From: Acetobacter nitrogenifigens DSM 23921 = NBRC 105050
Lineage (GTDB): Bacteria; Pseudomonadota; Alphaproteobacteria; Acetobacterales; Acetobacteraceae
Assembly (NCBI RefSeq): GCF_000429165.1
Contig: NZ_AUBI01000012.1
Location: 54,739 to 118,738, forward strand
Reading direction: 5' to 3'
DNA length: 64,000 nt
Shown here: piece by piece, positions 2,960 through 52,377 of the stretch
How positions within the stretch are numbered: the stretch's first letter is position 1
Layout of the letters: each line of letters begins with the position of its first letter
The notes under the pieces: model-generated
Databases searched by the model: none
The model's input: only the letters and a program-made list of their open reading frames with translations
What the model was told of the DNA's origin: nothing
Translations under genes and position numbers: made by a program

Positions 2960-3550
2960 ATGCTTTCTCCAGCCTACATAGCCCCCACCCCGGTTACCGA
3001 GGAGCAGTTTGCGCGCCCGGCCGGACCGACCGCAGCCGCTCCGGTGCGCGCAACCGTACGTGCCGGGCCGCAATACACCCTCACGTCACTCATGTCGCTT
3101 CAGGCGCTGGCGACCTCGCGCGGGTGCAATCCTCTGTTCTACAAGCAGGAAAGCGAGCGCTTCGGTCTCGGCAACATCAAGGCGTTCGGCTGCGCCCATG
3201 CGCTGCAGAAACGCGCGACAGACGACACTCAAGGGGTCTCGGTGGTCAAGGGCGAGCGCGACTGCCGCCGTGGCATCTATGTCCATGAGCATGTCACCGC
3301 CGCTCGCGCGGACGCCGTCTCCGACGCCGCCATGTGGCGCGCGCAGCAGGCGCCCGAGCGTAACGGGTGGCGCGTGACATCTGGCACGTCCCGTTCCAGT
3401 TACGGAGAGAGTCCGGGCTGGGTCATGCAGGGCTACAGCTTTATCGACGAAGAAATCCGTAACCAGACGCCCGACGCGCCGCCGACGCACGTGTTACTTC
3501 AGGCGCATATAGACGGTGAAGCAAGCCAAGTCGCCGTCTGTGTCGGTTGA
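2960..3550 (+). pseudogene. Decayed 2,3-diaminopropionate ammonia-lyase fragment
   Basis: The 196-residue frame aligns by eye with the N-terminal half of diaminopropionate ammonia-lyase (YgeX type, about 400 aa). ESERFGLGNIKAFG matches the PLP-lysine region (family ESxRFGLNAFKxLGG). NGWRV, then SPGWVMQGYSFIDEE and PPTHVLLQA, match the family order GWxVxxDT, PTWIMQGYATxxDE and PTHVxLQAGVG. The stretch between, including the TDGNHGRGVAW phosphate-binding region, is scrambled (TDDTQGVSVV), and the frame stops where the C-terminal half should begin. The enzyme normally converts 2,3-diaminopropionate to pyruvate and two ammonia. Loss of half the protein and of core motifs says pseudogene. It sits at the head of a cluster handling similar D- or N-substituted amino acids. 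Confidence 0.7.
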
Positions 3551-3739
3551 TGAACTACGCATCAACGCAACGCGTTTGAACGCTTCACTACAAACCGCCA
3601 GAACACATCGCCGCCCTTTTTGGCGACTGCGTGCCGCACAACATCAAGGAATGCACAGCGCCGAAAGATTTGGTTCGAGGCACAGAAGTTTTCGCGCGCT
3701 TCGTTCTGCGTTATAGCGAAATTTCATCGGAGCAGGGTC

Positions 3740-4654
3740 ATGACAAGAGAAATTATCATCGCCGGCGCGCAGATGGGGCCGATCGCGCGGGTCGACACAA
3801 GAGAAAGCGTGGTGGCTCGCATGACCACTCTGCTTGAGAAGGCCGCGCGAATGGGCGCGCAACTGGTCGTTTTCCCGGAGCTCGCGCTTACGACGTTTTT
3901 TCCTCGCTGGTTCATGGCGGAACAACAGGAGATCGACGTCTTCTTTGAAACGCAAATGCCAAACGAGTCGACAGAGCCACTTTTCACGCGTGCGCGGTCT
4001 CTGGGCGTGGCGTTCACGTTCGGTTTCGCTGAAAAAGTGACCGAAAATGGGATCGTCAGACGTTTCAATACGTCAGTTCTCGTCAACATACAGGGGGAGA
4101 TTGTCGCGCGTTATCGCAAAATCCACCTACCGGGTCATTCCGAACATGAGCCATGGCGCGCGTTTCAGCATCTCGAAAAACGTTATTTCGAACCAGGAGA
4201 GGGATTTTTCGAAACGACCGACCTTCTTGGCGGCCACTTCTCCATGGCCATCTGCAACGATCGGCGCTGGCCGGAAACATATCGCGAAATGGCGTTGCGT
4301 GGGGCCGAGGTCGCGACCATCGGTTACAACACGCCTCTACATTACGCGCAGGCCCCGGAGCACGACCACCTTCAGTCCTTTCATAACCACCTTTGCCTGC
4401 AAGCCGGGGCCTACCAGAACGGCCTGTGGGTCGTGGGCGTCGGCAAGACGGGCGTCGAGGAGGGTTGCGGCCTGCTCGGCCAAAGCTGCATCGTCGCCCC
4501 CACGGGTGAAATCGTCTCGATGGCCAGCACCACTGGCGACGAAGTGATCGTCGCGGCGTGCGATCTCGACCGTTGCGCGGAAATTCGCGAAAATATTTTC
4601 AATTTCGCGAAAAATCGACGCCCGGAAATGTACCCGTTGCTCAGCGCAGTATGA
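3740..4654 (+). CDS. N-carbamoyl-D-amino-acid hydrolase (nitrilase superfamily)
   Basis: 304 aa, the usual length of D-carbamoylases, and closely similar by eye to the Agrobacterium enzyme. It hydrolyses N-carbamoyl-D-amino acids to the free D-amino acid, CO2 and ammonia. The nitrilase triad is visible: Glu47 in VVFPELALTTFF, Lys127 in YRKIHLPGH and Cys172 in ICNDRRWPE. FNTSVLVN and GLLGQSCIVAPTGEIV are also family-specific. The ATG at 3740 matches the family N-terminus (MTREIIIAGAQMGPIAR); the frame is open further upstream to 3620 but without family similarity. It is the first intact gene of the plus-strand catabolic run and suggests that hydantoin-derived or other N-carbamoyl D-amino acids are among the substrates. 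Confidence 0.92.
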   Translation: MTREIIIAGAQMGPIARVDTRESVVARMTTLLEKAARMGAQLVVFPELALTTFFPRWFMAEQQEIDVFFETQMPNESTEPLFTRARSLGVAFTFGFAEKVTENGIVRRFNTSVLVNIQGEIVARYRKIHLPGHSEHEPWRAFQHLEKRYFEPGEGFFETTDLLGGHFSMAICNDRRWPETYREMALRGAEVATIGYNTPLHYAQAPEHDHLQSFHNHLCLQAGAYQNGLWVVGVGKTGVEEGCGLLGQSCIVAPTGEIVSMASTTGDEVIVAACDLDRCAEIRENIFNFAKNRRPEMYPLLSAV

Positions 4655-4859
4655 GCGCGAGCCTGCTCCGCAGCGATAAAATCGTTTTTAAATCGCATCG
4701 TCTGTTGGACGAATGGAAACTGGAGGCTAGCCTGTCGGCAGACACCGTTTATGGGAACGTCACCACGCGAGGAGCACGACGCCTTTGGCCCCTGACGACG
4801 CCAACCCCACAGACGGCCAATCCCAGACGCCAGCGCGCGCATCGCCCAGGAGCCCTGCC

Positions 4860-35443: not shown

Positions 35444-35752
35444 TGGCCGACATCACACGCAGGACGAAACGTGATCCGCCTGACCTGACCGATGAAGAAT
35501 GGGCGCGCATTGCCCCCCCCTGATGCCGCCTGCGAACCGGCGTGGCCGGAAATGGTCAACCGATTTTCGTGAGATCATCAATGCGCCGCGCTATCTTGTT
35601 CTTTCCGGCTGCGGCAGGGAGATGCCACCGGTTCATTTTGGTCCCCGGCGGGCCGTCTATTGGTGGTTCAGCAGGCTGACGCGTCGTTTTTTCTGTTCCA
35701 GGCCATTCATGATGTCTGCCTGATGCTCGATCGCGAGGCGGCAGGACGTGAT
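35444..35752 (+). pseudogene. IS5-family transposase, 5' fragment with frameshifts
   Basis: The fragment starts MADITRRTKRDPP and continues LTDEEWARIAPP, the N-terminus of IS5-type transposases. A run of eight C at 35513-35520 shifts the frame; the second frame continues LMPPANRRGRKWSTDFREI, then SGCGREMPPVHFGP and VYWWFSRLTRRF. A further shift gives FLFQAIHDVCLMLDREAAG. Only about the first 90 of some 250-280 residues remain; the sequence then changes abruptly to phage-related DNA at about 35753. It is an inactive deletion remnant. Confidence 0.85.
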
Positions 35753-35890
35753 CCTGACCATGCTTCGCGTGCCACAGAAGGCCACGGACTCGAAAGCGCC
35801 ATGCACTGGTTGGATCAGGAACTGGACCTATGGGCAGCCTCCATCATGAAAGCGCAGAAGAAATGAGCCCCATGCAATCCGCAGCCATAT
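35753..35890 (+). pseudogene. Diverged relic copy of a prophage early-operon segment
   Basis: DNA here matches 40551-40701 inside the 16-kb element: both open with GATCCTGACCATGCTTCGCG and both reach AATCCGCAGCCATAT. The relic encodes GLESAMHWLDQELDLWAASIM, against GLERAIHWLGRELDLRAAAIM in the intact gene, with an internal deletion of about a dozen bases. It lies 300 bp outside the left att site, fused to the IS fragment, so it records an earlier related element at this locus. Confidence 0.8.
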
Positions 35891-36191: not shown

Positions 36192-36215
36192 TGGCGGAGG
36201 GGATGGGATTCGAAC
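36192..36215. repeat. attL: attL: 24-bp copy of the tRNA-Ser 3' end
   Basis: Exact 24-bp match to 52286-52309, which covers the CCA end, discriminator base, 3' acceptor strand and T-arm of tRNA-Ser(GCU). The rest of the tRNA is absent here. This is the expected scar of integrase-mediated insertion into a tRNA 3' end; the integrase gene starts 142 bp to the right. Confidence 0.9.
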
Positions 36216-36356: not shown

Positions 36357-37562
36357 ATGAGTCGGCTCGCACCGCACCGCCTGACAGCACGACAAGTCGC
36401 CGCACACAAGGACGGCGACCTCGCTGACGGTGGCAACCTCTGGCTCGTGGCGCGGGGTAATTCACGGATCTGGACAATTCGCTACACCTCACCCACCAAC
36501 AGCAAACGCCGCGAAATGAGCCTCGGGTCCGCTTACGACATCGGGTTAGCTGAAGCCCGTACGCTAGCCACAGACGCTCGTCGCCTCGTCAATCAAAGGA
36601 TTGACCCACTCGAACAGCGCCGGACCGAAGACAGCGCCCGCAAGCAGGAAGCGGGGCTCAGTTTCCGCGCCGTGGCTGACCGCTATATCGAATCACAGAC
36701 GCCGGGCTGGCGAGATCCACGCGCCGCCTCGATCTGGTCCGCGTCCCTTGAGCAGAATGTTTACGGCTTCTTTGGCGATAAGCCAGTGGCTATGGTCGAT
36801 ACATCAGACGTAGAGAGCGTGCTGAAGCCGATCTGGACAGAGAAGACGGAGACCGCAACCCGCATCCGTGGCCGGATAGAGCGCATTCTCGACTATGCCC
36901 GCGCACAAGGCTGGCGCTCAGGAGAGAACCCGGCCCGGTGGCGTGGCCATTTGTCGGCGATCCTCGCGCCTCCATCGAAGGTGGCCAAGGTCGAACATCA
37001 CGCCGCAATCGATCGGAAAGATATCGCTCGCGTCATGGCCGCACTGGCGACGTCTGGCGGCATTGCCGCAAAGTCCGTCCGCTTCGCCTGCCTGACCGCC
37101 GCCCGTTCCGGTGAAGTTCGTAGCGCCACCTGGGGAGAGATCGATCTCGGCGCGAAGGTGTGGACCGTTCCGGCTCACCGCATGAAGACCGGCAAGGAAC
37201 ACCGCGTTCCGTTGTCCGATGGCGCTGTAGCTATCCTGCAGGAAGTGCGGCCACTTCGGGACGAACGACACGGCGATCTCGTGTTCCCTGGCCAGCGCGC
37301 CGGTAAGCCGCTCTCGGACGTGGCGCTGTCGAAGGCCCTTCACATCGCCGCCGGGACGAAGGACGTCACCGTGCATGGCCTGCGATCCACGTTCCGCGAC
37401 TGGGCGGCTGAAGAGACGGATTACCCCCGCGAGGTCGCCGAGATGGCGCTGGCGCACGCCATCAGCAACAAGGTCGAGGCCGCTTATCGTCGTGGGGATC
37501 TGTTCGAGAAGCGGCGGGAGATGATGGGGGCGTGGGCAGAGTCCATGACAAGGCAAAAATAG
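36357..37562 (+). CDS. int: Tyrosine recombinase integrase
   Basis: 401 aa, P4-type integrase layout: N-terminal DUF4102-like arm-binding part (residues 1-90: RLTARQVAAHKDGDLADGGN), a core-binding part (about 100-200) and the catalytic domain. Catalytic residues: Arg250 in LTAARSGEV, His340 and Arg343 in VHGLRSTFRDW, His367 in LAHAISNKVEAAYRR and the nucleophile Tyr377. It should insert and excise the element at the tRNA-Ser 3' end; attL is 142 bp upstream. AAGG lies near the start. Confidence 0.95.
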   Translation: MSRLAPHRLTARQVAAHKDGDLADGGNLWLVARGNSRIWTIRYTSPTNSKRREMSLGSAYDIGLAEARTLATDARRLVNQRIDPLEQRRTEDSARKQEAGLSFRAVADRYIESQTPGWRDPRAASIWSASLEQNVYGFFGDKPVAMVDTSDVESVLKPIWTEKTETATRIRGRIERILDYARAQGWRSGENPARWRGHLSAILAPPSKVAKVEHHAAIDRKDIARVMAALATSGGIAAKSVRFACLTAARSGEVRSATWGEIDLGAKVWTVPAHRMKTGKEHRVPLSDGAVAILQEVRPLRDERHGDLVFPGQRAGKPLSDVALSKALHIAAGTKDVTVHGLRSTFRDWAAEETDYPREVAEMALAHAISNKVEAAYRRGDLFEKRREMMGAWAESMTRQK

Positions 37563-37888: not shown

Positions 37889-38614
37889 ATGGCGCGTAAA
37901 CCTCGCTACTCGCCACCAGATACACCCCACGAAGTCGACCTCTTATCGCTGGTCGAGCGGACTAAGAGGCCTTTCAAGAATGACAGGCAAATAGATTTCC
38001 TGCGTCCAACCGGCGCCTCAAAGAATGCCGGTGTCAATGTTTTTTATGCTGGCGAGCTTTCGGTCCTGAACTTTCCCTGCGTATCGATCGTCGGAACGCG
38101 GGAGGTGTCCGAAGGCGGCTTTTTACGCGCGCACCGTCTTGCACGTCAGCTCGCCGAAGCTGGCGTCACGGTAGTGAGCGGGTTGGCTAGAGGCGTTGAT
38201 ACTGCCGCGCTGACCGGCGCGATTAAACATAAAGGTCGTGTTGCGGCCGTTATTGGAACGCCGTTAGCAAAGGCCTATCCTGCGGAAAACGCGTGCCTTC
38301 AGGAACATATTTGGCAAGATCATCTACTGCTGTCTCCCTTCGCCGAAGGGGAGGCCGTATACCGTAGCAATTTCCCAAAGCGAAACCGAGTGATGGCTGC
38401 AATATCTGATGCTACTGTGATTGTTGAGGCATCAGACACCTCTGGCACTCTGCATCAGGCGGCAGAATGTCAGCGCCTTGGTCGCTGGCTCTTCATTATG
38501 AAGTCTGTAGTCGACGATCCTAGATTGACTTGGCCATCAAAATTTTTAGGTCATGAAAAAACTCACATTCTAGAAAACACTCACGATATTGTTGAAAGAA
38601 TCGACCATGCCTAA
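37889..38614 (+). CDS. DprA/Smf-like Rossmann (SLOG) protein
   Basis: 241 aa from the ATG at 37889, with AAGAAGGG about 9 nt upstream. It is a single DprA-type domain without the usual N-terminal SAM-like or C-terminal winged-helix parts. Landmarks: VSIVGTREVSEGGFLRAHRLA, TVVSGLARGVDTAALTGA, VAAVIGTPLAKAYPAEN, NFPKRNRVMAAISDATVIVEA and SGTLHQAAECQRLGRW. DprA loads RecA on single-stranded DNA in transformation; single-domain relatives belong to the SLOG nucleotide-binding superfamily. It overlaps the next gene by 8 nt and sits between integrase and repressor, a common cargo position, so it is probably not a competence gene. Confidence 0.87.
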   Translation: MARKPRYSPPDTPHEVDLLSLVERTKRPFKNDRQIDFLRPTGASKNAGVNVFYAGELSVLNFPCVSIVGTREVSEGGFLRAHRLARQLAEAGVTVVSGLARGVDTAALTGAIKHKGRVAAVIGTPLAKAYPAENACLQEHIWQDHLLLSPFAEGEAVYRSNFPKRNRVMAAISDATVIVEASDTSGTLHQAAECQRLGRWLFIMKSVVDDPRLTWPSKFLGHEKTHILENTHDIVERIDHA

Positions 38615-39281
38615 TATTAAAGTTCACTCTTTGATTTCATATCCGTCTTACGAAGAATGCGGTGCCTCATTTAGACAAGTCGATTTCGATTGTATGAAGC
38701 TTGTCAAATGTTACAAGGGAAATGTGATAAATGGCTTTCTAACTCTATCAGTTAACAAGGTAAATCGTAAGTATTACCAAAAAGACTCTGAAGATTTAAT
38801 CAACCTTGTCAATAATTCAATCGCCCGGATGATAGAAAATATTTCAAAATACGCAGTAACACTCGTTCCTGTTCCTAATAGCAATGCGACAATTGCGAAT
38901 AAAGAACCTTTCCGAACCCAACTATTAGCCTTACAAATTAGCCAAATTTTGGCGAATGGCTCCCAAGTGCAACCTTGCCTAAGGTGGCGCACCCCAGCTG
39001 GTTCAGCTCATAAAGATGGCACGTCCCGAGATCCACAAATTCTCGAAGCGAACCTTGAATTAGAATCTCTTCCAACGAACCCAGTGATACTCTTTGACGA
39101 CGTGCTGACTTCGGGCGGCCACATTAGGGCATGCGCGAGGAAGCTAAGAAATGCTGGGATATCTGTGGACCATGCGTTCACCGCCGCAAGAACCGTCTGG
39201 CAACCTGCGGACACCATGATTTCTGTTGAAGATAGAGATTACTCTTTAGACGATCCCGTGATCACATGGGACCAGTTTTAA
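38607..39281 (+). CDS. ComF-like phosphoribosyltransferase
   Basis: 224 aa from the ATG at 38607, inside the end of the DprA-like gene (8-nt overlap). The PRPP-binding loop is VILFDDVLTSGGHIRACARKL, near residue 160, with two acidic residues and the T-S-G-G turn. YAVTLVPVPNSNA resembles the first strand of ComF-type proteins. The ComF zinc-finger cysteines are not evident. Base composition is much richer in A+T than the neighbouring genes, pointing to separate acquisition. PRTases transfer to or from phosphoribosyl pyrophosphate; the substrate is unknown. It probably works with the DprA-like protein. Confidence 0.85.
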   Translation: MPNIKVHSLISYPSYEECGASFRQVDFDCMKLVKCYKGNVINGFLTLSVNKVNRKYYQKDSEDLINLVNNSIARMIENISKYAVTLVPVPNSNATIANKEPFRTQLLALQISQILANGSQVQPCLRWRTPAGSAHKDGTSRDPQILEANLELESLPTNPVILFDDVLTSGGHIRACARKLRNAGISVDHAFTAARTVWQPADTMISVEDRDYSLDDPVITWDQF

Positions 39282-39499
39282 TTAATAGACTGGCCTGCGC
39301 GTCTAATCCCGTGCGTCAACTCGCGGATGTGACCCTTAACCATATACCACTCCCTGACACGATCCATGTCGTCGTCATCCATGAAGCCGACGATTCGGCG
39401 GTGTGCTATCTCTTCTGCCTCAGCACCGAACAGCCGCAGCAGTTCAATTGCCGCAGCCTTCGGGTCGATCGGTGCCCGCCCTTCAGGAAAATCAGTCAT
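39278..39499 (-). CDS. Small hypothetical protein of the element
   Basis: 73 aa, MTDFPEGRAPIDPKAAAIEL then acidic helices (FGAEAEEIAHRRIVGFMDDDDMDRV). A strong AGGAGG lies about 9 nt before the ATG at 39499, which supports translation and sets the start within a longer frame. Its end overlaps the end of the convergent phosphoribosyltransferase gene by 4 nt. The helical pattern resembles small alphaproteobacterial prophage proteins of unknown function. Confidence 0.65.
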   Translation of the reverse strand: MTDFPEGRAPIDPKAAAIELLRLFGAEAEEIAHRRIVGFMDDDDMDRVREWYMVKGHIRELTHGIRRAGQSIN

Positions 39500-39573
39500 C
39501 GTTTGGTAGCCTCCTATCTCACATACGAGATCCGAACCCGGCAACGCCTGTGTCTCACTTAAATCGCTTCATC

Positions 39574-39813
39574 TCAGCCCCCCTTCCTCAACCTAACCCC
39601 TGCCCCACCGCCATTCTCAGCTATGAACTCAACGCCTGCGGTCTCTAAGGCTGTGCGGATGGCGGAGAGGGTGGCTGCTCTGGGGGAAACAACGTCGGTT
39701 TCAACCCGCACGAGAGTGCTCTTTGGGACGCCGCTTTTTTCAACGAGATCGTCTCTCGTCCAATCAAGCAGCCCGCGAGCTGCCCTGATCTGTGACGCCT
39801 TAATGGTATCCAC
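39574..39813 (-). CDS. Xre-type HTH regulator, probable element repressor
   Basis: 79 aa, single helix-turn-helix domain: IRAARGLLDWTRDDLVEKSGV, then PKSTLVRVETDVVSPRAATLSAI. No sensing domain. It is divergent from the compact early operon across a 131-bp gap with palindromes, so it is the likely repressor, possibly working with the S24-like protein encoded at 40121. Confidence 0.85.
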   Translation of the reverse strand: MDTIKASQIRAARGLLDWTRDDLVEKSGVPKSTLVRVETDVVSPRAATLSAIRTALETAGVEFIAENGGGAGVRLRKGG

Positions 39814-40492: not shown

Positions 40493-40677
40493 CCGAAGCC
40501 GCACGCACCGCCATTCGCAAAGCGTCTGATGACGTGGCTGATATCGCCCTGATCCTGACCATGCTTCGCGTGCCGCAGGAGGTGACGGACTCTCACGGAC
40601 TGGAAAGAGCCATACACTGGCTGGGTCGGGAACTCGACCTACGCGCAGCCGCCATCATGGAGGCGCAGGAAGGATGA
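40489..40677 (+). CDS. Small helical protein of the early operon
   Basis: 62 aa, predicted mostly helical: ASDDVADIALILTMLRVPQ, then GLERAIHWLGRELDLRAAAIM. Not a recognised family. Overlaps both neighbours by 4 nt. A decayed copy of its second half lies outside the element at 35753-35890, showing that the family occurs in more than one element at this locus. Confidence 0.65.
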   Translation: MTEAARTAIRKASDDVADIALILTMLRVPQEVTDSHGLERAIHWLGRELDLRAAAIMEAQEG

Positions 40678-40961
40678 CCCCCATTCAATCCGCAGCCATA
40701 TCCGCCACAGCCTCAGATCGTCGCGCATTGCGTCTGGACCCTGAAGGCATCGCCCTCAGCACCCCGACAGTAGCAGCCGAGTTCGATCGGTGGCGCAGGG
40801 CGTGGACCCGCGCATGGACCGGACAAGCCAGATCGAGGCGAGACCTGATCGCCCGCGCACGGCTGGCAATCGCTGATCCAAACATCATGGACCATGACGA
40901 AACCCAACGGCTCGCCCGCGACGTGCTGGCCGTGCTTGGCGCAGGAGGGAGGCGCGCATGA
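40674..40961 (+). CDS. Hypothetical early-operon protein A
   Basis: 95 aa, basic and helical. Begins MTPIQSAAISATASDRR and ends with RSRRDLIARARLAIADP and ETQRLARDVLAVLG. Shares its MTPI start and its C-terminal pattern with the next gene, so the two are probably distant duplicates. ATGA overlaps at both ends. Confidence 0.6.
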   Translation: MTPIQSAAISATASDRRALRLDPEGIALSTPTVAAEFDRWRRAWTRAWTGQARSRRDLIARARLAIADPNIMDHDETQRLARDVLAVLGAGGRRA

Positions 40962-42249: not shown

Positions 42250-42444
42250 ATGACGACTGACTCGAAGGGCCGCCGTTTCTACCGCCGGGAAGAAATCTGG
42301 CGTGAAACGGGCCTGAGCCGCGCAACCGTGGATCGGCTGATCGCTGCCGAGAAGTTCGTGAAAATCAAAGTCGGACGGAACACGCTGATTACAGCGGAGA
42401 GCTACCAGCGGTGGATTGATTCGCTGAAGCCGGAAGCCGCCTGA
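42250..42444 (+). CDS. AlpA-like HTH/excisionase-type protein
   Basis: 64 aa: RRFYRREEIWRETGLSRATV, then RLIAAEKFVKIKVGRNTLI, the MerR/AlpA-type winged-helix layout. Such proteins act as excisionases or as activators of integrase or replication genes in prophages and satellites. AGGGAGGA lies just upstream. It stands in front of the replication genes, as in many satellites. Confidence 0.75.
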   Translation: MTTDSKGRRFYRREEIWRETGLSRATVDRLIAAEKFVKIKVGRNTLITAESYQRWIDSLKPEAA

Positions 42445-42778: not shown

Positions 42779-43116
42779 GCGACGACATCTCTCCGTCGTG
42801 CCGCGATGGCATGAACATGCTCGGCAACATGTCTCTTCAGGGATATGCAGCGCCGCAACTCATCCGGATTGGTCAGGCCTGGGTTGATCGCCACGATCCC
42901 GGCGGCGATCCCCTGATCAACGCTGGAACGATCGCTATCGCAGCGCTGATCCGTGAAGCATATGACCAGTCAGGTTTACCATATGCTCGCCTCGTGGCTA
43001 ACCTGTTCGCAACATGCGTGAAAGAGGAACTTGATTTCGCACGCCTGCGCGACCGTACCGACCGCGAGCAGGCGACCGGCAGCAAGACAAAGAAACGGAA
43101 GGCGCGCGCAGCATGA
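42775..43116 (+). CDS. Hypothetical replication-operon protein
   Basis: 113 aa: helical middle (LRIAALIREAYDQSG-like: TIAIAALIREAYDQSGLPYA), a strand ARLVANLFATCVKEELDFAR and a lysine/arginine-rich tail (KTKKRKARAA). Not recognised. Four-base overlaps at both ends place it with the primase. Confidence 0.6.
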   Translation: MSDDISPSCRDGMNMLGNMSLQGYAAPQLIRIGQAWVDRHDPGGDPLINAGTIAIAALIREAYDQSGLPYARLVANLFATCVKEELDFARLRDRTDREQATGSKTKKRKARAA

Positions 43117-43928
43117 GCGCCGCCCTCAAAACCGTATCTGACAGCCCTGTAGCGCTGGAAGCCGCCCGTCTCGCCTCTCGTGGCCTGACAGTCTTTCCCT
43201 GTCACGAGGACAAGCGCCCAACATGCAAATGGGGAGACTTGGCCACCAGTTCTCCGGATGACGCGCTGATGCTGTGGCGCACATACCACGGCGCACTGAT
43301 CGGCGTCGTCACCGGGCGCTCTTCCAACATCGTCGTGCTGGATCTCGATCTTCAGCATCCGACCGCCGATGAGTGGTATGGCGAGCATTGCACCCGCCTG
43401 CAGGGACACCGCATGCACCGGACCCGCTCCGGCGGCCTGCACGTCCTGTTCAAGTACCGGTCCGGTGTGACCAACCGGAATCCCCGCGGAACAGACGGGC
43501 AAAAGACCGTTGGTGTCGATATGCGCGGCGAAGGCGGTTACATCATCTGGTGGCCCGCCACCGGGCTTGAGGTGATCGACAACATCCGTCCCCAGCCCAT
43601 GCCCGCATGGCTCGTCGAGATGGTCACCCCGCCGCCTGCGCCAAAAGCGGACCTCGCGAAGATCGAGAACGGCCTGCGCGACGCCGACAGGTATGTGGCG
43701 GGGGCCGTTCGAGCCGCAGTCGCTTCCGTCGCGTCGTGCCGGGAAGGCGGGCGCAACCACACACTGAACGCCGAGACCTACGCCCTGGCGCGCTTTATCG
43801 CGAGCGGGCATCTCACGACCAGCGACGTCGCCGCAGCGATGGCCGCCGCCGCCATGCAGGCCGGTCTCGACAAATCCGAAATCGAGAAAACAATCGCCTC
43901 GGCGCTCCGGGCAAGGATGGCCGGATGA
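43113..43928 (+). CDS. Primase-polymerase (bifunctional DNA primase/polymerase domain)
   Basis: 271 aa. The Prim-Pol fold is indicated by GLTVFPCHEDKRPTCKWGDLA, GVVTGRSSNIVVLDLDLQ with the metal-binding Asp-x-Asp, GLHVLFKYRSGVTN, and VDMRGEGGYIIWWPA. The C-terminal part (residues 190-271) is helical, as in primase C-terminal domains. It primes, and may extend, DNA for element replication. Coupled by overlaps to the protein before and the helicase after. Confidence 0.9.
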   Translation: MSAALKTVSDSPVALEAARLASRGLTVFPCHEDKRPTCKWGDLATSSPDDALMLWRTYHGALIGVVTGRSSNIVVLDLDLQHPTADEWYGEHCTRLQGHRMHRTRSGGLHVLFKYRSGVTNRNPRGTDGQKTVGVDMRGEGGYIIWWPATGLEVIDNIRPQPMPAWLVEMVTPPPAPKADLAKIENGLRDADRYVAGAVRAAVASVASCREGGRNHTLNAETYALARFIASGHLTTSDVAAAMAAAAMQAGLDKSEIEKTIASALRARMAG

Positions 43929-45142
43929 ACGGACCTGTAAACTTTGATGCTGCCGTCGCAGCCGGTTTAAGGCAGGCTGAGCAACGCGCCACCGTGGCGC
44001 AAACTGCAACGCCGCTTCTGATCGATTGCGACGACTGGGACGAGGCCGACATCGCGCCCCGCCCGTGGGTGGCGCCCGGCATGCTCCTGCGCGGCGCGGT
44101 CACAGTCGTTGTCGGCGAACCCGCAGCTGGCAAGTCGATGCTCATGGTCGGCTGGGCGACGTCGCTGGTGCTTGGCCGCGAGTATGGCCGGATGAAGCCG
44201 GTAAAGCCCTGCACCGTCCTGACCTACAACACGGAGGACGACCGCGACGAACAGCGCAGGCGCTTCTCGGCGCAGTTCCGCTCGATCGGCTGCACGCCTG
44301 CCGACATGCACGGGCGACTGTTCAGGGTCAGCACCGAGAGTATCGGCACGTTGCTGTCAGCACCCCGTGAAGCCGGAATGTCCGAGACAGCCGCCATGCA
44401 GCAGCTTGAAGCGTTGATCCGTGAGCACAGGCCGGACGTGATCATGCTCGATCCGCTCGTGGAGCTTCACGAACAGGAGGAAAACGACAACACGGCCATC
44501 CGTGCGGTCATGGCGCGCTTCCGCAGCCTGGCCATGCAATACGAGATGGCGGTTGTCCTACTGCACCACACGCGGAAGGGATCAGCAGGCATCGCAGGCA
44601 ATCCCGACATCGCACGCGGCGCTACAGCCATCACCGGCGCGGCTCGCATCATGCTCACGGTCTCGGTCATGACTGAGCAGGAGGCGGAAGGTTTCAGCAT
44701 CAAGCCTGACCATCGCAGGTATTTCTCGCGTGTCGACGGAGCCAAGATCAACGCAGCGCCCATCGGTAAAGAGGAATGGTTCGAACGCCAGTCATACGAA
44801 CTCGACAACGGCGACCACACCGCCGCGATGCTGCCATGGACCCCGCCTGAGGATAGCGTCACGCTGACGCAGAAGATTGATATCGAGGCAGGTATCGCCA
44901 AGGGATCGTCAGAAGGACCGTGGAGCCCCAAACTCTCAAACGACACCCGCTCCATCCGCCGCCTGTTCGTCGAGCACGGGATTACCTCAGCAAAGGCGCA
45001 GAAGATGGCGCTGGATCACCTGCTGGCGTCTGGATGCACTGTCGAGACGTTCAGGAGGTCCAACAACGGAAAGGCACAAGGTATTCGGAACTCTGAGGGG
45101 CAACCGGCAACGGCAAAATGGGTGCAGGAGGATGGGGTATGA
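43925..45142 (+). CDS. RecA-like replicative helicase (RepA/AAA_25 type)
   Basis: 405 aa. Walker A VVGEPAAGKSMLMVGWA near residue 65, Walker B DVIMLDPLVEL near 178, and MAVVLLHHTRKGSAG, the RepA-type sensor segment. The C-terminal 100 residues contain an HTH-like stretch (ITSAKAQKMALDHLLASGC). Typical partner of Prim-Pol proteins in prophage replication. The start overlaps the primase stop by 4 nt. The repeat cluster at 45142-45255 begins at its stop codon. Confidence 0.88.
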   Translation: MNGPVNFDAAVAAGLRQAEQRATVAQTATPLLIDCDDWDEADIAPRPWVAPGMLLRGAVTVVVGEPAAGKSMLMVGWATSLVLGREYGRMKPVKPCTVLTYNTEDDRDEQRRRFSAQFRSIGCTPADMHGRLFRVSTESIGTLLSAPREAGMSETAAMQQLEALIREHRPDVIMLDPLVELHEQEENDNTAIRAVMARFRSLAMQYEMAVVLLHHTRKGSAGIAGNPDIARGATAITGAARIMLTVSVMTEQEAEGFSIKPDHRRYFSRVDGAKINAAPIGKEEWFERQSYELDNGDHTAAMLPWTPPEDSVTLTQKIDIEAGIAKGSSEGPWSPKLSNDTRSIRRLFVEHGITSAKAQKMALDHLLASGCTVETFRRSNNGKAQGIRNSEGQPATAKWVQEDGV

Positions 45143-45870: not shown

Positions 45871-46230
45871 ATGAAGCGCATAAACCCCTATTCTCGCCCC
45901 GATGCGGTGGCGAAACTCGACGGAAGGTCGAAAGAGGCGCGGCTGGTCAAAGAGACGCGCCGGGAACTGCTCGCGCATCTCGGCAAGAAGCCGACTGTCA
46001 CCCAGATCGCCCTTGTCGAACGGGTGGCGTGGATACGCCTTCACCTATCGCTGCTCGACCGCAAGATGGCAGGAACGGCCCCCGGTGAGCGTGACGCACG
46101 GCAATACCTCGCGTGGACGAACACCATGGCGAAGCTGCTGACCCGCCTTGGTCTCGACCAGCCTGAGCATGACGTCGCGCCGATCCCCAGCCTCGACTCC
46201 CTTCTCGCCAGCCGCAGGGCCAGCGCATGA
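45871..46230 (+). CDS. Probable small terminase subunit
   Basis: 119 aa from the ATG at 45871; the frame is open to 45745 but the upstream part looks non-coding. Sequence: RPDAVAKLDGRSKEARLVKE, then VTQIALVERVAWIRLHLSLLD and ARQYLAWTNTMAKLLTRLGL, the helical layout seen in phage proteins directly before large terminases. It overlaps the large subunit gene by 4 nt. Identity rests mainly on position. Confidence 0.6.
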   Translation: MKRINPYSRPDAVAKLDGRSKEARLVKETRRELLAHLGKKPTVTQIALVERVAWIRLHLSLLDRKMAGTAPGERDARQYLAWTNTMAKLLTRLGLDQPEHDVAPIPSLDSLLASRRASA

Positions 46231-47642
46231 GCGAGATCAGCATCCTCGACGCGATGCACGATCCCGCCCTGTTTGGCGAAGAGTTCACAGACGCCTCATG
46301 GGACGCATGGAAAGCGTTTCTGGCGGCGCTGCTGGCCCTCCCGGCGACAGAGACGCAGGCGGAGCTTATTCGGGCCTGCACAGGGCGTCTCGACCTTCCC
46401 GTCTCCCCGTTCCGACGCGCCGCCCTGATCTGTGGCCGTCGCGCAGGCAAGAGCCGCATGCTCGCCCTGCTCGGAACGTGCCTCGCGACCCTGCGTGACT
46501 ACCGTTCCCACCTGTCGGCTGGCGAGGTCGCTACTGTCGGCATCATCGCCGCCGACCGCAGGCAGGCCCGAACCATCTTTCGCTACGTGCGCGGCCTGAT
46601 CAATTCAGTTCCCGCCATCGAGGCTGAAGTCACCAGCGAGACGAACGAGACCATCGAACTCGGCAAACGTCGGGTGGTGATCGAGATCGGGACCGCCAGC
46701 TTCCGAGGAACGCGCGGCTACACCTACGCCGCCGTGCTGTGTGACGAGGTGGCGTTCTGGCGCGACGACACCGGCGCGAACCCGGATGAGGAAATCATCA
46801 CCGCCTTGCGCCCCGGCCTTGCGACCATCCCCGGCTCGATGCTCCTGCTAGCGTCCTCTCCCTACGCCCGCCGTGGCGTGCTGTGGAAGACCTTCCGCAA
46901 GCACTACGGGCAGGAAGCCGCGACGACGCTGGTGTGGAAAGCAAGCACGCGGACCATGAACCCCTCGTTCGACGAACAGGAAGAGCGCGAGGCTTACGAG
47001 GAAGACCCGGAGAAAGCCTCCGCCGAGTATGGCGCGGAGTTTCGGTCTGACATCGCCTCGTTCGTCACGCCCGAGGTTGTGTCGGCCTGCACTGCCCCTG
47101 GCCGGTTTGAACTGCCGTTCATCCGGGGCGTCCGCTATCGGGCCTTCTGCGATCCCAGCGGCGGCTCGTCCGACAGCTTCACGCTCGCCATCGCCCACGA
47201 ACAGGGCGACATCACGGTTCTCGATTGCGTCCGCGAGATCAAAGCCCCCTTCTCTCCCGACGCCGCAACGCGGGAGATGGCCGACACCATCAAGTCCTAC
47301 GGGCTGAAGTCAGTCACCGGAGACCGTTACGGCGGCGAGTGGCCGCGTGAACGCTTCAGGGTGCACGGCGTCAATTACCACCTGAGCGAAAAGGATCGCT
47401 CGGGCCTCTACCTCGAAATGCTGCCCAAAATGAACGCGGGCAAGGTCGAGTTGCTGGATCTCAAGCAGATCGAACGTCAGTTCTGCGGTCTGGAACGCAG
47501 GACAGCCCGCAGCGGCAGGGATTCAGTCGATCATGCCCCCGGTGGCCATGACGACGTAGCCAACGCCATCGCGGGCGTCATCGTCTCAGCGTCGACCAGA
47601 AAGCCGATGCGCTTCACCGCCGCCGACATAGCGCGAATATGA
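46227..47642 (+). CDS. Phage terminase large subunit
   Basis: 471 aa. ATPase: Walker A CGRRAGKSRML (residues 69-79) and Walker B AAVLCDEVAFW near 170, followed by SMLLLASSPYARRGVLW. Nuclease domain: FCDPSGGSSDSFTLAIAH, VTGDRYGGEWPRERF and the late acidic GGHDDVANAIAG. It cuts and pumps DNA into procapsids. Normally a portal gene follows; here a DUF2213-like gene begins at once. Confidence 0.93.
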   Translation: MSEISILDAMHDPALFGEEFTDASWDAWKAFLAALLALPATETQAELIRACTGRLDLPVSPFRRAALICGRRAGKSRMLALLGTCLATLRDYRSHLSAGEVATVGIIAADRRQARTIFRYVRGLINSVPAIEAEVTSETNETIELGKRRVVIEIGTASFRGTRGYTYAAVLCDEVAFWRDDTGANPDEEIITALRPGLATIPGSMLLLASSPYARRGVLWKTFRKHYGQEAATTLVWKASTRTMNPSFDEQEEREAYEEDPEKASAEYGAEFRSDIASFVTPEVVSACTAPGRFELPFIRGVRYRAFCDPSGGSSDSFTLAIAHEQGDITVLDCVREIKAPFSPDAATREMADTIKSYGLKSVTGDRYGGEWPRERFRVHGVNYHLSEKDRSGLYLEMLPKMNAGKVELLDLKQIERQFCGLERRTARSGRDSVDHAPGGHDDVANAIAGVIVSASTRKPMRFTAADIARI

Positions 47643-47668
47643 CCCACCACACTCAGGAAAGAAATAAA

Positions 47669-48511
47669 ATGGCAAGGTCTCTCTCGTCCCTCGGGGGCAG
47701 GCGCGTGTCGCTCGCGTATGACCGCTCCGTGCGACGAGTGGACAAGGACGGACACCTGTTCGTCGAGACATGCACGCTGTCGTCCGCCGTGATCTCGGAA
47801 TACTGGGGCTGGGAAATTCCCGACGCTGGCCGTCTGGGGTTCGAGCCTGACCGCATGTATCGCCTCTATCGCGACGCGGACGCGCTCAGGGCGTCGGCTG
47901 ACACGCTGAACGGCAAGCCGATCATGATGGAGCACATCACGTCGACCGCCGACGCCCACCCGAAAGATCAGGTGATTGGCGCTGTCGGTTCCGATGTGCA
48001 TTTCGATTTCCCCAGACTGGTCGGCTCTCTCAGCTTTTGGGCGCCAGAGGCGATCTCCGCCATCCAGTCCGGAAAGATGCGGTCTGTTTCGGCGGGATAC
48101 CGCTATCGGGCAATCCGTGAAGCCGGGTTCCTGAACGGCGAACCCTATGACGGCGTCATGACCGACATCCACTTCAACCACCTCGCTCTCGTGGCGGCTC
48201 CGCGCGTGCCGGACGCTGTCATTGGCGATTCCCTCCCCTCCATGGATTTCAAAAAAATGGCCACTGATCTCGAAAACATTATTCAGGAACGCATGGACTT
48301 CCTCCGCGATCCTTCCAGCGCCCCCGACCGGGAGCAGTTCAACGCCAGTTGGCTCGCCAAACTGGATGCAGCCCTCGGCGTGAGCGCCCCTGAAACGGCC
48401 ATGGACCGCCGCCCCGCGGTGCGCGGCCTGTCGTCGAATACCGGCTGGCGTTCCAGCACAACGCCCCTAGCTGGCGTGCTCGCCCCTGCCTCGCGCATCA
48501 AGGTTCTCTGA
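47669..48511 (+). CDS. DUF2213-like phage protein (probable head maturation protein)
   Basis: 280 aa from the ATG at 47669 (AGGAAAG about 8 nt upstream); an ATG at 47639 overlaps the terminase stop. Landmarks of the family: LSSAVISEYWGWEIPD, MMEHITSTADAHPKDQVIGAVG, and SGKMRSVSAGYRYRAIREAG followed by HFNHLALVAAPRVPDAVIGDS, where the His resembles the catalytic site of capsid proteases. In related phages this gene lies between portal and major capsid, neither of which is recognised here. Confidence 0.8.
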   Translation: MARSLSSLGGRRVSLAYDRSVRRVDKDGHLFVETCTLSSAVISEYWGWEIPDAGRLGFEPDRMYRLYRDADALRASADTLNGKPIMMEHITSTADAHPKDQVIGAVGSDVHFDFPRLVGSLSFWAPEAISAIQSGKMRSVSAGYRYRAIREAGFLNGEPYDGVMTDIHFNHLALVAAPRVPDAVIGDSLPSMDFKKMATDLENIIQERMDFLRDPSSAPDREQFNASWLAKLDAALGVSAPETAMDRRPAVRGLSSNTGWRSSTTPLAGVLAPASRIKVL

Positions 48512-49373: not shown

Positions 49374-49916
49374 ATGGCAATGAAATCCACAGGCGGCCCC
49401 GGTTGGGAAGCCGCTATCGCCGCACTTCAAAAGAAAGTGGCGCAGGGCGCTCACGTCAACGTTGGCTTCCTGTCAGGAGATGAGGAAAGCAAGCAGGAGA
49501 TCCCCCCAGCCACGATCGCGGCTTTCAACGAGTTTGGAACCGCGACATCTCCGCCCCGGCCATTCATGCGAAACGCCATCGCTGAGAACAAGGATGACTG
49601 GCCGAAGCAGATGGCTGCTGCGCTCTTAGCGACGGATTACGACGTCGAGAAGGCGCTCGGAATGGTCGGCGAAAAGATAAAAGACCAGATTGTCAAAGAA
49701 ATAGAATCATTTACCGAACCCGCGAACTCCCCTTTGACCAGCCTTCTGAAAGACCGATTCCCTGTTCCTGACAGGATGACGGTCGCGGATGTCTGGAAGG
49801 CGATGAGGGACGTTAGGGAGGGTGCAACCGCGCCTCCAGGAAAACCCCTCATCTGGTCGGGGCAGATGAGAGATTCCGTCGCATTCGAAGTGAAGGATGG
49901 ACCAAGTGAGGATTAG
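49374..49916 (+). CDS. HK97 gp10-like / tail-completion phage protein
   Basis: 180 aa. AAFNEFGTATSPPRPFMRNAI is the well-known signature of gp10-type and related neck/tail completion proteins, with HVNVGFLSGDEES before it and a helical middle. The C-terminal KPLIWSGQMRDSVAFEV also occurs in this group. Likely a virion assembly protein between head and tail. Confidence 0.7.
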   Translation: MAMKSTGGPGWEAAIAALQKKVAQGAHVNVGFLSGDEESKQEIPPATIAAFNEFGTATSPPRPFMRNAIAENKDDWPKQMAAALLATDYDVEKALGMVGEKIKDQIVKEIESFTEPANSPLTSLLKDRFPVPDRMTVADVWKAMRDVREGATAPPGKPLIWSGQMRDSVAFEVKDGPSED

Positions 49917-49943: not shown

Positions 49944-50675
49944 ATGGCCATGACCACAGTTGCCCAACCCGTGACGGCGAACGTCATCGCGGGCTCTGGC
50001 GTCCCGAAGCTCTGGTCCACCGTCATCACGTCGGCGGAAGCCGTCGCGTCGGTGGAACTCGACACGCTCCTGCAATCCTATCTGGTGCAGAACGCATCTT
50101 CGCAATGGGGTCTGTTCGATTCAAGCAACAGCGCCGTCATCACGTCGGGCCGCGTGCGCGCGATTGATATGCGCGTTGGATATCAGGTCACGGACGCTCC
50201 GCAAGAGAACGGCGCGTTCATGTCCTATAACAAGGTGAAACAGCCACGGCAGATCATGCTTGAAGTGCTGTGCGATGGCTCGACGATGAGTTATGGCGAC
50301 ACGAGCGCGATTGACAATCTCGTCTCGACGTTCACGACCGGAGCGACAGGCGGATCGACAATCCGAAAAAGGTTCCTCGCCGCGCTCGAAGCGCTTGTCG
50401 CTAACACGACGCTCTATACGGCGACGACCCCTGAAGCGACCTACCCGAACATGAACGTGGTCGGATACTCCATCCGGCGCGCGGCAGATCGGGGGCTGTA
50501 TCTGCTGTATGCGGATATCATGCTGCAAGAAATAAGGCTTACTGCCGTGAGCCGTAAAGCTACAGCGGCTCAAGAGCCAAGCGGCGAGACGCAGCAGAAC
50601 AGCGGCAACGTTCAGACGCAGGCTTTGAGCGACGCTCAGGTGGCCGCCTTCGCCCAGGGCGCAGGCTTATTTTGA
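49944..50675 (+). CDS. Dit-like phage tail/baseplate protein
   Basis: 243 aa. KVKQPRQIMLEVLCDG, RKRFLAALEALVANTTLYT and MNVVGYSIRRAADRGLYLLY, then ADIMLQEIRLT, are the conserved stretch of the distal-tail (Dit)-like group of myovirus-type baseplates. The C-terminus is a Gln-rich low-complexity tail. GGGAGGA precedes the ATG. No tape measure gene precedes it as would be usual. Confidence 0.65.
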   Translation: MAMTTVAQPVTANVIAGSGVPKLWSTVITSAEAVASVELDTLLQSYLVQNASSQWGLFDSSNSAVITSGRVRAIDMRVGYQVTDAPQENGAFMSYNKVKQPRQIMLEVLCDGSTMSYGDTSAIDNLVSTFTTGATGGSTIRKRFLAALEALVANTTLYTATTPEATYPNMNVVGYSIRRAADRGLYLLYADIMLQEIRLTAVSRKATAAQEPSGETQQNSGNVQTQALSDAQVAAFAQGAGLF

Positions 50676-50717: not shown

Positions 50718-51668
50718 ATGACTGATTCCAGCTTCACGAAAAAGAAACTAAAAATTTCCTTTGATATCGTCGACAACGGATTCAACGGAGGCGATGAAAC
50801 ATTGGATATTCTGGGGCACCGCGTCTCATGCCAGATCGAGAATGCAGCCTTCGAAAGCGGCGTCACGTGCGCGCTGCGTATCGAAGGTATGCATCTCTCC
50901 GATATGAACAGGCTCTCCACACTTCAGGCCGGGTTCGTGCAGCAGAGCCAAAACAGCGTCACCGTTCTTGCGTCAGACGGCGGCCCATATCAGGCAGTAT
51001 TTTCAGATGGCGTTGTCGAAGCCTTTATTGATTTCAGTGGAGCGCCGAACATCGCTTTCGTAGTCATGGCGCAGACCATGGCGATCCCGGCAGCAATGAA
51101 GATTTCGACGACCTCCTTCAAGGATAGCGTTGCTGTCGCCGACATCATGAAGACTATCGCAGATAAAGCCGGTCTGACGTTCCAAAATAACGGCGTCACT
51201 CAGGTTCTCGCTGGCGGCGTTTATTACGAGGGAACGGCGGCGATGCAGATGCAGGCCGTGGCTGCCGCTACCCGCATCACCTATTGCGTCGCCATGAATG
51301 TGCTTTCGATCTGGCCCGAGCAGGTCAAGGCTGACAGCGCGCAGGTCGAGATATCCGCCGACAATGGCATGATGGGATATCCGGCGTATTCGCAATATGG
51401 CGTTTCGGTGCGGACGCTGTTCAACAGCAGCATAGGCTTCCACACGACAATCAAGCTGGACAGCAAATATTCACCGGCAGCGTGGGTGAACAATTACGGG
51501 CAGTTGAACGGCCTGTCGAAGACCGCGCTTCACTCGCCATCGAATGGCGTATGGGTTGCGATCAAGGTTCAGCACGACCTTCAGTCGGAAACGCCGGGCG
51601 GATTGTGGACGACACTTATAGAGGCGGCGCGACCTGACTTCGCCGGGTTGGTGGCGTATGCCGTCTGA
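50718..51668 (+). CDS. Baseplate hub-like phage protein
   Basis: 316 aa. A beta-rich protein: SFDIVDNGFNGGDETLDILG, then CALRIEGMHLSDMNRLSTLQ and IDFSGAPNIAFVVMAQT, resembling hub (gp27-like) proteins that follow Dit-like genes. ADIMKTIADKAGLTFQNNGV is the typical Ile-Ala-rich domain. Overlaps the resolvase gene by 11 nt. Confidence 0.6.
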   Translation: MTDSSFTKKKLKISFDIVDNGFNGGDETLDILGHRVSCQIENAAFESGVTCALRIEGMHLSDMNRLSTLQAGFVQQSQNSVTVLASDGGPYQAVFSDGVVEAFIDFSGAPNIAFVVMAQTMAIPAAMKISTTSFKDSVAVADIMKTIADKAGLTFQNNGVTQVLAGGVYYEGTAAMQMQAVAAATRITYCVAMNVLSIWPEQVKADSAQVEISADNGMMGYPAYSQYGVSVRTLFNSSIGFHTTIKLDSKYSPAAWVNNYGQLNGLSKTALHSPSNGVWVAIKVQHDLQSETPGGLWTTLIEAARPDFAGLVAYAV

Positions 51669-52197
51669 ACCATGTCGTGCATCAACCCGGCCAGTCATCG
51701 CGATCGATCCCGGCATCACAGGCGCCATCGCCGTGCTGAACGACCGTGGCGGGCTGATCGAAATTCTCGACATGCCGACAAGCGTGGTCACGGTCTCTGG
51801 TAAGGTCCGCAACGTCGTGTCTGCGCCGCTTCTGGCGACCATGATCCGCGCGCACGATCCGTCAGAGGTGTGGCTTGAGAAGGTGAACGCGAGGCCGGGC
51901 GAAGGACCGGCGGGCGCATTCTCATTCGGACGCGGCGTCGGCGTGATCGAGGGCGTTGTCGCCACGCTGGGCCTGCCTCTTACTACCGTGATCCCGGCAG
52001 TTTGGAAGAAGGCCATGCGATGCCCTGCCGACAAGGACGGGGCGCGGACGCGGGCCATGCAGCTTTTCCCGACCAGCGCCGACCTGTTCAAGCGGAAGAA
52101 GGATGACGGACGGGCCGAGGCGGCGATGCTGGGACGGTTCGCTTTGGGGCTGGGCGAACAGAATCGCACCTCACGAGCGCGCTCGAATGCTCCCTAA
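51658..52197 (+). CDS. RuvC-like Holliday-junction resolvase
   Basis: 179 aa. RNase H-fold catalytic acids: Asp in VIAIDPGITGAIAVL, Glu in VWLEKVNARPGEGP, and the acidic pair in FKRKKDDGRAEAAMLG. Phage RuvC-like enzymes trim branched DNA before packaging. It is the last gene before attR, in an unusual place among tail genes. Confidence 0.88.
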   Translation: MPSEPCRASTRPVIAIDPGITGAIAVLNDRGGLIEILDMPTSVVTVSGKVRNVVSAPLLATMIRAHDPSEVWLEKVNARPGEGPAGAFSFGRGVGVIEGVVATLGLPLTTVIPAVWKKAMRCPADKDGARTRAMQLFPTSADLFKRKKDDGRAEAAMLGRFALGLGEQNRTSRARSNAP

Positions 52198-52285: not shown

Positions 52286-52309
52286 TGGCGGAGGGGATGG
52301 GATTCGAAC
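52286..52309. repeat. attR: attR: 24-bp core within the tRNA-Ser 3' end
   Basis: Exact direct repeat of 36192-36215. It forms the 3' end of the intact tRNA gene, as expected when an integrating element restores the tRNA it enters. Confidence 0.9.
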
Positions 52310-52377
52310 CCACGATACGCGGTTAAGCGTATAACGGTTTAGCAAACCGCCGCCTTCAGCCTCTCGGCCACCCCTCC
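52286..52377 (-). tRNA. tRNA-Ser(GCU)
   Basis: Reverse strand: acceptor GGAGGGG pairs with CCCCTCC, discriminator G and encoded CCA. D-arm GGCCGAGAGGC, anticodon loop TTGCTAA giving GCU, a long variable arm typical of serine tRNAs, and T-arm with GGTTCGAATCC. The 3' end serves as attachment site. Confidence 0.96.

Follow-up and report, generated by a model that had tools for sequence, protein, structure and literature searches.

Background

Several described systems pair a DprA-like protein with a phosphoribosyltransferase (PRTase). A DprA and PRTase pair from a P2 hotspot is reported to protect Escherichia coli against phages T7 and lambda, and DprA homologues are described as antitoxins in shosTA, syrTA and rqlHI (PMC9122126). 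In RqlHI the toxicity of RqlH is reported to reside in its PRTase domain, the PRTase alone being insufficient, and the DprA-like RqlI restrains RqlH and co-precipitates with it (PMC4670107). A review (PMC12593503, which cites Pu et al. 2025) describes ShosT as both a PRTase and a pyrophosphatase with a disturbing effect on purine metabolism, and ShosA as a DNA-binding protein, and names T7 Gp0.7 as a trigger of ShosTA. ShosTA has also been reported in a Pf phage (PMC11878078). Here we describe a two-gene unit in a 64,000-nt stretch of the genome of Acetobacter nitrogenifigens DSM 23921 (the window, in which all coordinates below are given unless another locus is named). By its sequence the pair is a minimal ShosTA-type unit, a single-domain DprA-like ShosA gene followed by a PRTase-only ShosT gene, and it probably acts as an anti-phage toxin-antitoxin unit carried as cargo by an element integrated at a tRNA gene.

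Organization and family assignment of the gene pair

The first gene (37889-38614, + strand) encodes a ShosA-like single-domain DprA homologue of 241 amino acids, the predicted antitoxin or sensor, and the second (38607-39281, + strand) a ShosT-like PRTase of 224 amino acids, the predicted toxin. The two genes overlap by 8 nt (ATGCCTAA, 38607-38614, + strand), a segment that contains both the shosT start and the shosA stop. The pair is flanked by an integrase gene on the left (36357-37562) and by an opposing helix-turn-helix (HTH) gene on the right (39574-39813). An earlier, sequence-only reading of this DNA had described the same arrangement, a single-domain DprA-like gene overlapping a PRTase gene by 8 nt between integrase and repressor, and the coordinates agree; its remark that the PRTase gene is rich in A+T relative to its neighbours is also borne out, with G+C falling from 0.63 in int to 0.52 in the DprA-like gene and 0.43 in the PRTase gene before rising again to 0.59.

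The interpretation offered here starts from what is observed at the locus, namely the protein families, the gene adjacency, the phosphoribosyl pyrophosphate (PRPP) loop, the predicted folds, the element borders and a variable cargo slot. The DprA-like protein matches the PADLOC ShosA model PDLC03961 at E 5.5e-64, which is its top PADLOC match, and the PRTase matches the ShosT model PDLC03962 distantly, at E 3.3e-13 and 48 bits. As in ShosTA, the genes adjoin on the same strand, here with the 8-nt overlap, and the window ShosT contains the acidic PRPP-binding loop VILFDDVLTSGGH, whose acid pair DD is kept in 27 of 28 PRTases. Invariant residues are retained in both proteins: K37, P90, R141 and D165 in ShosT, and G69, R71, SGLA at 97-100 and FP and RN at 162-166 in ShosA. 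The predicted structures have ComF (ShosT) and DprA (ShosA) as their nearest folds. The Foldseek alignments of ShosT had low TM, and for this reason a VIA re-alignment was used, in which the window ShosT aligns to residues 175-375 of 8zvc. Since the pair matches both PADLOC models, the sequence-only guess of a conflict or defence unit, perhaps already catalogued and to be checked with defence HMM sets, was correct, and the kind is present as ShosA/ShosT in PADLOC-DB. The guess of nucleotide signalling finds no support in that form, as the published E. coli ShosTA mechanism is that of a nucleotide-pool and DNA-damage toxin, as reviewed in PMC12593503.

Pairing and divergence among relatives

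Relatives were collected from genome and virus contigs with ShosA as the sole query, giving 15 and 10 loci respectively that are 52-67% identical. ShosA was chosen as the probe because ShosT searches retrieved almost nothing: ShosT as sole query found nothing in viral contigs or in plasmids, a word-based search of 5.8 billion proteins returned four relatives besides itself among 176 candidates, and a search of the genus gave, apart from the self-match, weak scores of 18-30 bits that are not used as evidence. In the same 5.8-billion-protein database ShosA has 6721 matches among 7996 scored candidates (the best 120 of the 6721 being listed). Its wider relatives include 237 plasmid records and 37 phage records, with the partner gene inspected in five.

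Rare adjacency of the homologues was what the sequence-only reading had named as grounds for giving up a two-gene unit, and adjacency proves to be the rule: a PRTase gene directly follows shosA in 24 of the 25 loci, and the remaining one (L027) is cut, ending where shosA ends, while L015, with an identical ShosA sequence, does have a PRTase. The PRTases of L007, L015, L019 and L026, missed by automatic start calling, were read by hand; several PRTase starts are approximate, and L023 is a duplicate of L009. Adjoining PRTases are also present in the other two class genomes with a clade member, G040 (L139 4855-5559, profile E 2.6e-38) and G299 (L078 2195-2890, profile E 7.2e-76), each of which may be an organism already counted.

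Among 24 non-redundant pairs the mean identity within the clade is 56.9% for ShosA as against 25.9% for ShosT, and the two identity matrices correlate (Mantel r 0.76, p 1e-4). With the matrices correlated and ShosT identity far lower, the pair is co-inherited, with the predicted toxin changing much faster. L018 (virus contig, 458-1894) is a likely case of partner exchange and an exception to co-inheritance. Its ShosA is 67% identical to that of the window, the closest fetched, but its PRTase shares only 21% identity and reaches 135 bits with the ShosT model, compared with 48 for the window PRTase.

The ShosA clade and its distribution

We compared 24 ShosA sequences with 17 canonical DprAs from genus and class relatives (the window genome's own included), drawn from 28 candidate loci, 11 of which were dropped by the script as their match lay on the minus strand. 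ShosA keeps G69, R71, SGLA, D104, YP and the F, P, R and N of FPxRN, and its R71 and R159 align with R115 and K202 of Streptococcus pneumoniae DprA, which we take to be DNA-binding positions. Fourteen columns differ in residue between the groups while being conserved within each, including GTP at 123-125 (AGG in DprA), HQ at 189-190 (IT) and W215 and F219 (G and L), and further columns are conserved in ShosA alone, among them the A, E, C and Q at 192-195 that follow HQ, giving a clade-specific loop TLHQAAECQ. The E. coli ShosA structure 8zva has SGTSHT at the SGTLHQ site, so the histidine may be common to ShosA proteins. Because the ShosA fold is shared with SLOG/LOG proteins, some of them AMP-bound, we suggest, only as a hypothesis, that the clade loop binds a nucleotide.

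The window genome also has a separate full-length dprA (a 421-codon frame), and the window ShosA scores 145.8 bits against the DprA equivalog model TIGR00732, below its cut-off of 191.15. A DprA match is present in every one of 37 genus genomes (own included); a member of the ShosA clade is found in the window's genome only, the next best match in the genus being the G008 locus at E 5.7e-43, and at E <= 1e-40 the clade occurs in 3 of 385 class genomes. Among the integrase matches listed, a tyrosine integrase lies within 10 kb on the same contig for 6 of 15 ShosA copies and 0 of 15 other DprA copies (Fisher p 0.017). This comparison covers the 15 genomes behind L003-L017, in which many contigs are short; the other DprA copies come from 14 of them (two from G435 and none from G434, with two weak G446 matches excluded), an integrase recorded as 'none on contig' was scored as no, and integrases on contigs that lack DprA were partly omitted, which leaves the distances unaffected.

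Proposed function and alternatives

In the mechanism we favour, ShosT would poison the nucleotide pool and the DNA of the cell unless restrained by its DprA-like partner, and ShosA would neutralise the toxic ShosT. Phage replication or takeover, represented in E. coli by T7 Gp0.7, would shift the balance of toxin and antitoxin, so that the infected cell would halt growth or die ahead of phage release, and the benefit to the element would be the exclusion of competing phages from its host. ShosT toxicity, its neutralisation by ShosA, the trigger and the protection against phages are extrapolated here from characterised relatives. Because the window ShosT lacks the N-terminal region of E. coli ShosT, toxicity would in this case come from the PRTase domain alone.

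Several observations weigh against this mechanism. The match to the ShosT model is distant (48 bits, compared with 161 for the L138 PRTase of a genus relative), and in structural comparison the match of ShosT to solved ShosT ties in Z with housekeeping PRTases. The extra N-terminal (HAD-annotated) region of E. coli ShosT is absent from the 224-residue window protein, and with both a distant match and a missing region the published activities may not transfer. The PRPP loop is altered in one clade member, L004. Finally, the DNA directly upstream of shosA shows no sigma-70 promoter-like site, although alphaproteobacterial promoters may differ.

The alternative that survives best, possible if not likely, is that the pair is a plain toxin-antitoxin addiction or stabilisation module that retains the element in the chromosome and protects against phages only incidentally. 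It would fit the position of the pair next to the integrase, a position shared by Gp49/HTH and PIN-type pairs in sibling elements (see below), and the antitoxin role of DprA homologues in shosTA, syrTA and rqlHI. On the other side, the characterised DprA and PRTase pair does protect against phages (PMC9122126), and stabilisation and defence are mutually compatible. We consider it improbable that the pair is decayed or co-opted and free of toxin activity, for instance regulating element replication through single-stranded DNA binding; the element looks incomplete and ShosT is divergent, but both frames are intact and overlapping and their invariant residues are kept. A competence or recombination accessory, a DprA and a ComF aiding DNA uptake or recombination by element or host, is very improbable even though both proteins resemble competence factors and have these as their nearest folds, as the separate dprA, the rarity of the clade, the score below the equivalog cut-off, the 14 switched columns, the enrichment near integrases and the constant PRTase neighbour all speak against it, in keeping with the sequence-only reading.

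The carrier element

The element, which carries the pair as probable anti-phage cargo, is delimited by a 24-bp exact direct repeat, TGGCGGAGGGGATGGGATTCGAAC, at 36192-36215 and 52286-52309, and is 16.1 kb long. The left attachment repeat is a copy of the 3' end of the tRNA-Ser(GCT) gene (52286-52377, - strand, identified by ARAGORN), which is the integration target and whose own 3' end forms the right repeat. Just two copies of TGGCGGAGGGGATGGGATTCGAAC occur in the window even at five mismatches (+ strand scanned). The integrase (36357-37562, + strand) is of the tyrosine type (phrog_1, E 1.3e-51). To the right of the pair are an 88-codon open reading frame (ORF) with a TTG start that is convergent with shosT and has no PHROG or Pfam match (39278-39544, - strand), and the HTH repressor-like gene (39574-39813, - strand; phrog transcriptional regulators, E 1.5e-4), which forms the conserved right border of the cargo slot.

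The remaining recognised genes are all on the + strand. They include an excisionase-like gene (42250-42444; phrog_66, E 1.2e-8), a Prim-Pol primase-like gene (43113-43928; PF09250, E 9.5e-19) and a RepA/DnaB-like ATPase (43925-45142; phrog_25693, E 1.5e-117, and the phrog_906 primase, E 9.7e-27). These are followed by a terminase large subunit (46227-47642; phrog_2, E 3.4e-25, with Terminase_6N at E 2.6e-4, just under the cut-off), a head maturation protease-like DUF2213 gene (47639-48511; phrog_2229, E 5.9e-71, and PF09979, E 1.2e-33), a Neck1 or tail completion-like gene (49374-49916; phrog_222, E 1.1e-37), a Dit-like tail protein (49944-50675; PF21821, E 3.5e-10), a baseplate hub-like gene (50718-51668; phrog_196, E 8e-46, and PF22759, E 8.8e-14) and a RuvC-like Holliday junction resolvase (51658-52197; phrog_1770, E 2.7e-32).

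The element is small, integrated at a tRNA and equipped with int, regulator, primase and packaging genes, the set of features that we take to define PICI/cfPICI-like phage satellites. Portal, major capsid and tape measure genes were not recognised among the 21 element ORFs scanned with PHROGs and the 10 scanned with Pfam, several ORFs having no family (the largest of 238 residues) and some small ones lying outside the scan; for this reason we regard the element as satellite-like or as a reduced prophage. A complete prophage is not supported, although the Neck1, Dit-like and hub-like genes, being of tail type, keep that option alive. Five further genus genomes have a match to the right-flank gene, and the two at 90-91% protein identity (G431 and G429) were examined for an empty tRNA-Ser(GCT) site; none was found, the G431 site holding a 29%-identical integrase and the G429 site DNA like the element's right end. 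Outside the element, the left flank at 35749-35890 resembles part of the element's own genes, at 40550-40701 (83% identity over 108 bp and an exact 25-mer), and may be what is left of an element that previously occupied the same tRNA.

Sibling elements and their cargo

Of 49 genus genomes (own included), 27 have integrase matches at E <= 1e-60, at 38 places in all. Eighteen stretches from 15 integrase-bearing genomes were fetched, 17 of them spanning an integrase and the other a terminase, together with the ShosA loci of G008 and G040. Ten stretches reach a tRNA gene (L120-L122, L124-L126, L128, L129, L131 and L133), and all of these except L128 have end repeats, bounding elements of 8.8-16.3 kb at tRNA-Ala, -Tyr or -Asn. 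In L123 (G035:C169) the element fills the whole 14168-bp contig, whose two ends are identical over 51 bp; the contig may represent a circular or excised copy, or the assembly may have broken at the repeats. The siblings (L120-L133) share the integrase and often the primase, the terminase and the RuvC-like right end; ten sibling elements have a repressor with 44-83% identity to that of the window across 71 or more of its 79 residues, and in L128 the match covers 19 residues. Neither ShosA nor ShosT has a match at E 1e-5 in the 18 sibling stretches.

Twelve elements, that of the window included, have int followed by the repressor and could be compared at this slot (L134 was dropped, its other genes being oppositely oriented). 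The interval spans 0.8-4.3 kb and its contents differ: PIN_10 with a partner gene in L121 and L125, Gp49/HTH in L128 and L132, an HTH/M78 peptidase gene pair like capH/capP in L124 that may instead be a phage regulator, and a Mob_Pre piece in L126 (one ORF scanned). L133 (1893-4916) carries a ParA-like ATPase, an HNH endonuclease (PADLOC HNH, E 6.9e-19) and a 189-residue protein that has no family match, and L130 two proteins that lack Pfam matches. L127, whose integrase is 95% identical to that of the window, has in its slot (3179-4656) two genes of 284 and 208 codons with G+C of 0.35 and 0.42 and no Pfam or PADLOC match, which are candidates for new defence genes. Toxin-antitoxin or defence-like genes are thus recognised by domain in 7 of the 12 slots, ShosTA included (the ORFs of L122 and L131 were outside the scan).

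No description of this element family was found in titles and abstracts of the open-licence literature on satellites, in general and in acetic acid bacteria and Alphaproteobacteria. A broader proposal, speculative and in our view rather doubtful, is that the window element belongs to a family of phage satellites, as yet undescribed, that are 9-16 kb long and integrate at tRNA genes and in which the slot between int and repressor is a defence hotspot, and that this slot here holds a third, minimal type of ShosTA, with a PRTase-only toxin diverging fast under a nearly fixed single-domain DprA. On this view the (nearly) invariant LHQAAEC loop would lie over the SLOG nucleotide pocket, and ShosA might be a nucleotide-gated inhibitor that senses the toxin product or a phage-altered nucleotide pool, and not only a DNA-repair recruiter.

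Comparison with known systems

The locus represents a reduced variant of an already known type of defence; its identity is unsurprising, and the novelty lies in the variant, in the asymmetry of toxin and antitoxin and in the cargo slot. It suggests that a Rossmann-fold protein together with a bare PRTase can make up a ShosTA-type defence. Such a minimal pair would allow the toxic chemistry to be studied in the absence of the E. coli N-terminal region, and so which activity kills to be tested, and a conserved ShosA with a fast-changing ShosT in fixed pairing offers natural variants from which the toxin-antitoxin interface could be mapped. The sibling comparison points to the cargo slot of this genus-wide element family as a place to seek further defence genes.

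Canonical DprA and ComF have the same folds as the window pair, but canonical DprA frames are 354-516 codons long, and the window ShosA is shorter at both ends and has clade-specific residues. PsyrTA/RqlHI resembles the window pair in joining a DprA-like antitoxin to a PRTase toxin domain, and PADLOC PsyrA matches the window ShosA at E 3.2e-27, but its toxin PRTase (509-690) is reported to be fused to a RecQ-like helicase (PMC4670107), whereas the window ShosT is unfused. Identity with PsyrTA/RqlHI is rejected, since the 224-residue protein is PRTase only and a helicase domain is absent in the Pfam scan.

Among ShosTA systems, E. coli ShosT (solved as 8zvc/8zvd) has 412-424 residues, with about 174 before the PRTase domain, and E. 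coli ShosA (8zva/9vzo) has chains of 318-331 residues, the window ShosA having an N terminus about 70 residues shorter. Phage PfAC02a has the opposite gene order, ShosT before ShosA, and its ShosT is annotated as a HAD hydrolase/PRTase, a region for which the window ShosT has no room; in phage 10W a gene for a 424-residue 'hypothetical protein' adjoins a DprA-like gene. Closer in form are the pairs of Burkholderia phage Mana (near its integrase), Pseudomonas phage Riah and Sphingobium plasmid pNIN1, which have the same gene order and PRTases of 201-225 residues. Their ShosA proteins are 46-47% identical to that of the window over ~70-77% of the query, and these DprA proteins, known there from product names alone, are 282-311 residues long as against 241.

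The genus relative G008 (L138 = G008:C218, 523-4430) has two ShosTA forms in tandem, the first with a 332-residue DprA-like protein and a 217-residue PRTase (ShosT model, E 1.3e-47), and the second with a 336-residue DprA-like protein and a 415-residue ShosT (ShosT model, E 7.9e-82) that has a HAD_2 match under the cut-off (E 0.0042). The long ShosT model PDLC03012 matches this long ShosT and has no match to the window PRTase at E <= 1. Because short-PRTase pairs such as that of G008 match it, the short ShosT model of PADLOC already covers the PRTase-only kind. Judged from sequence, the single-domain ShosA clade takes the reduction a step beyond the PRTase-only ShosT.
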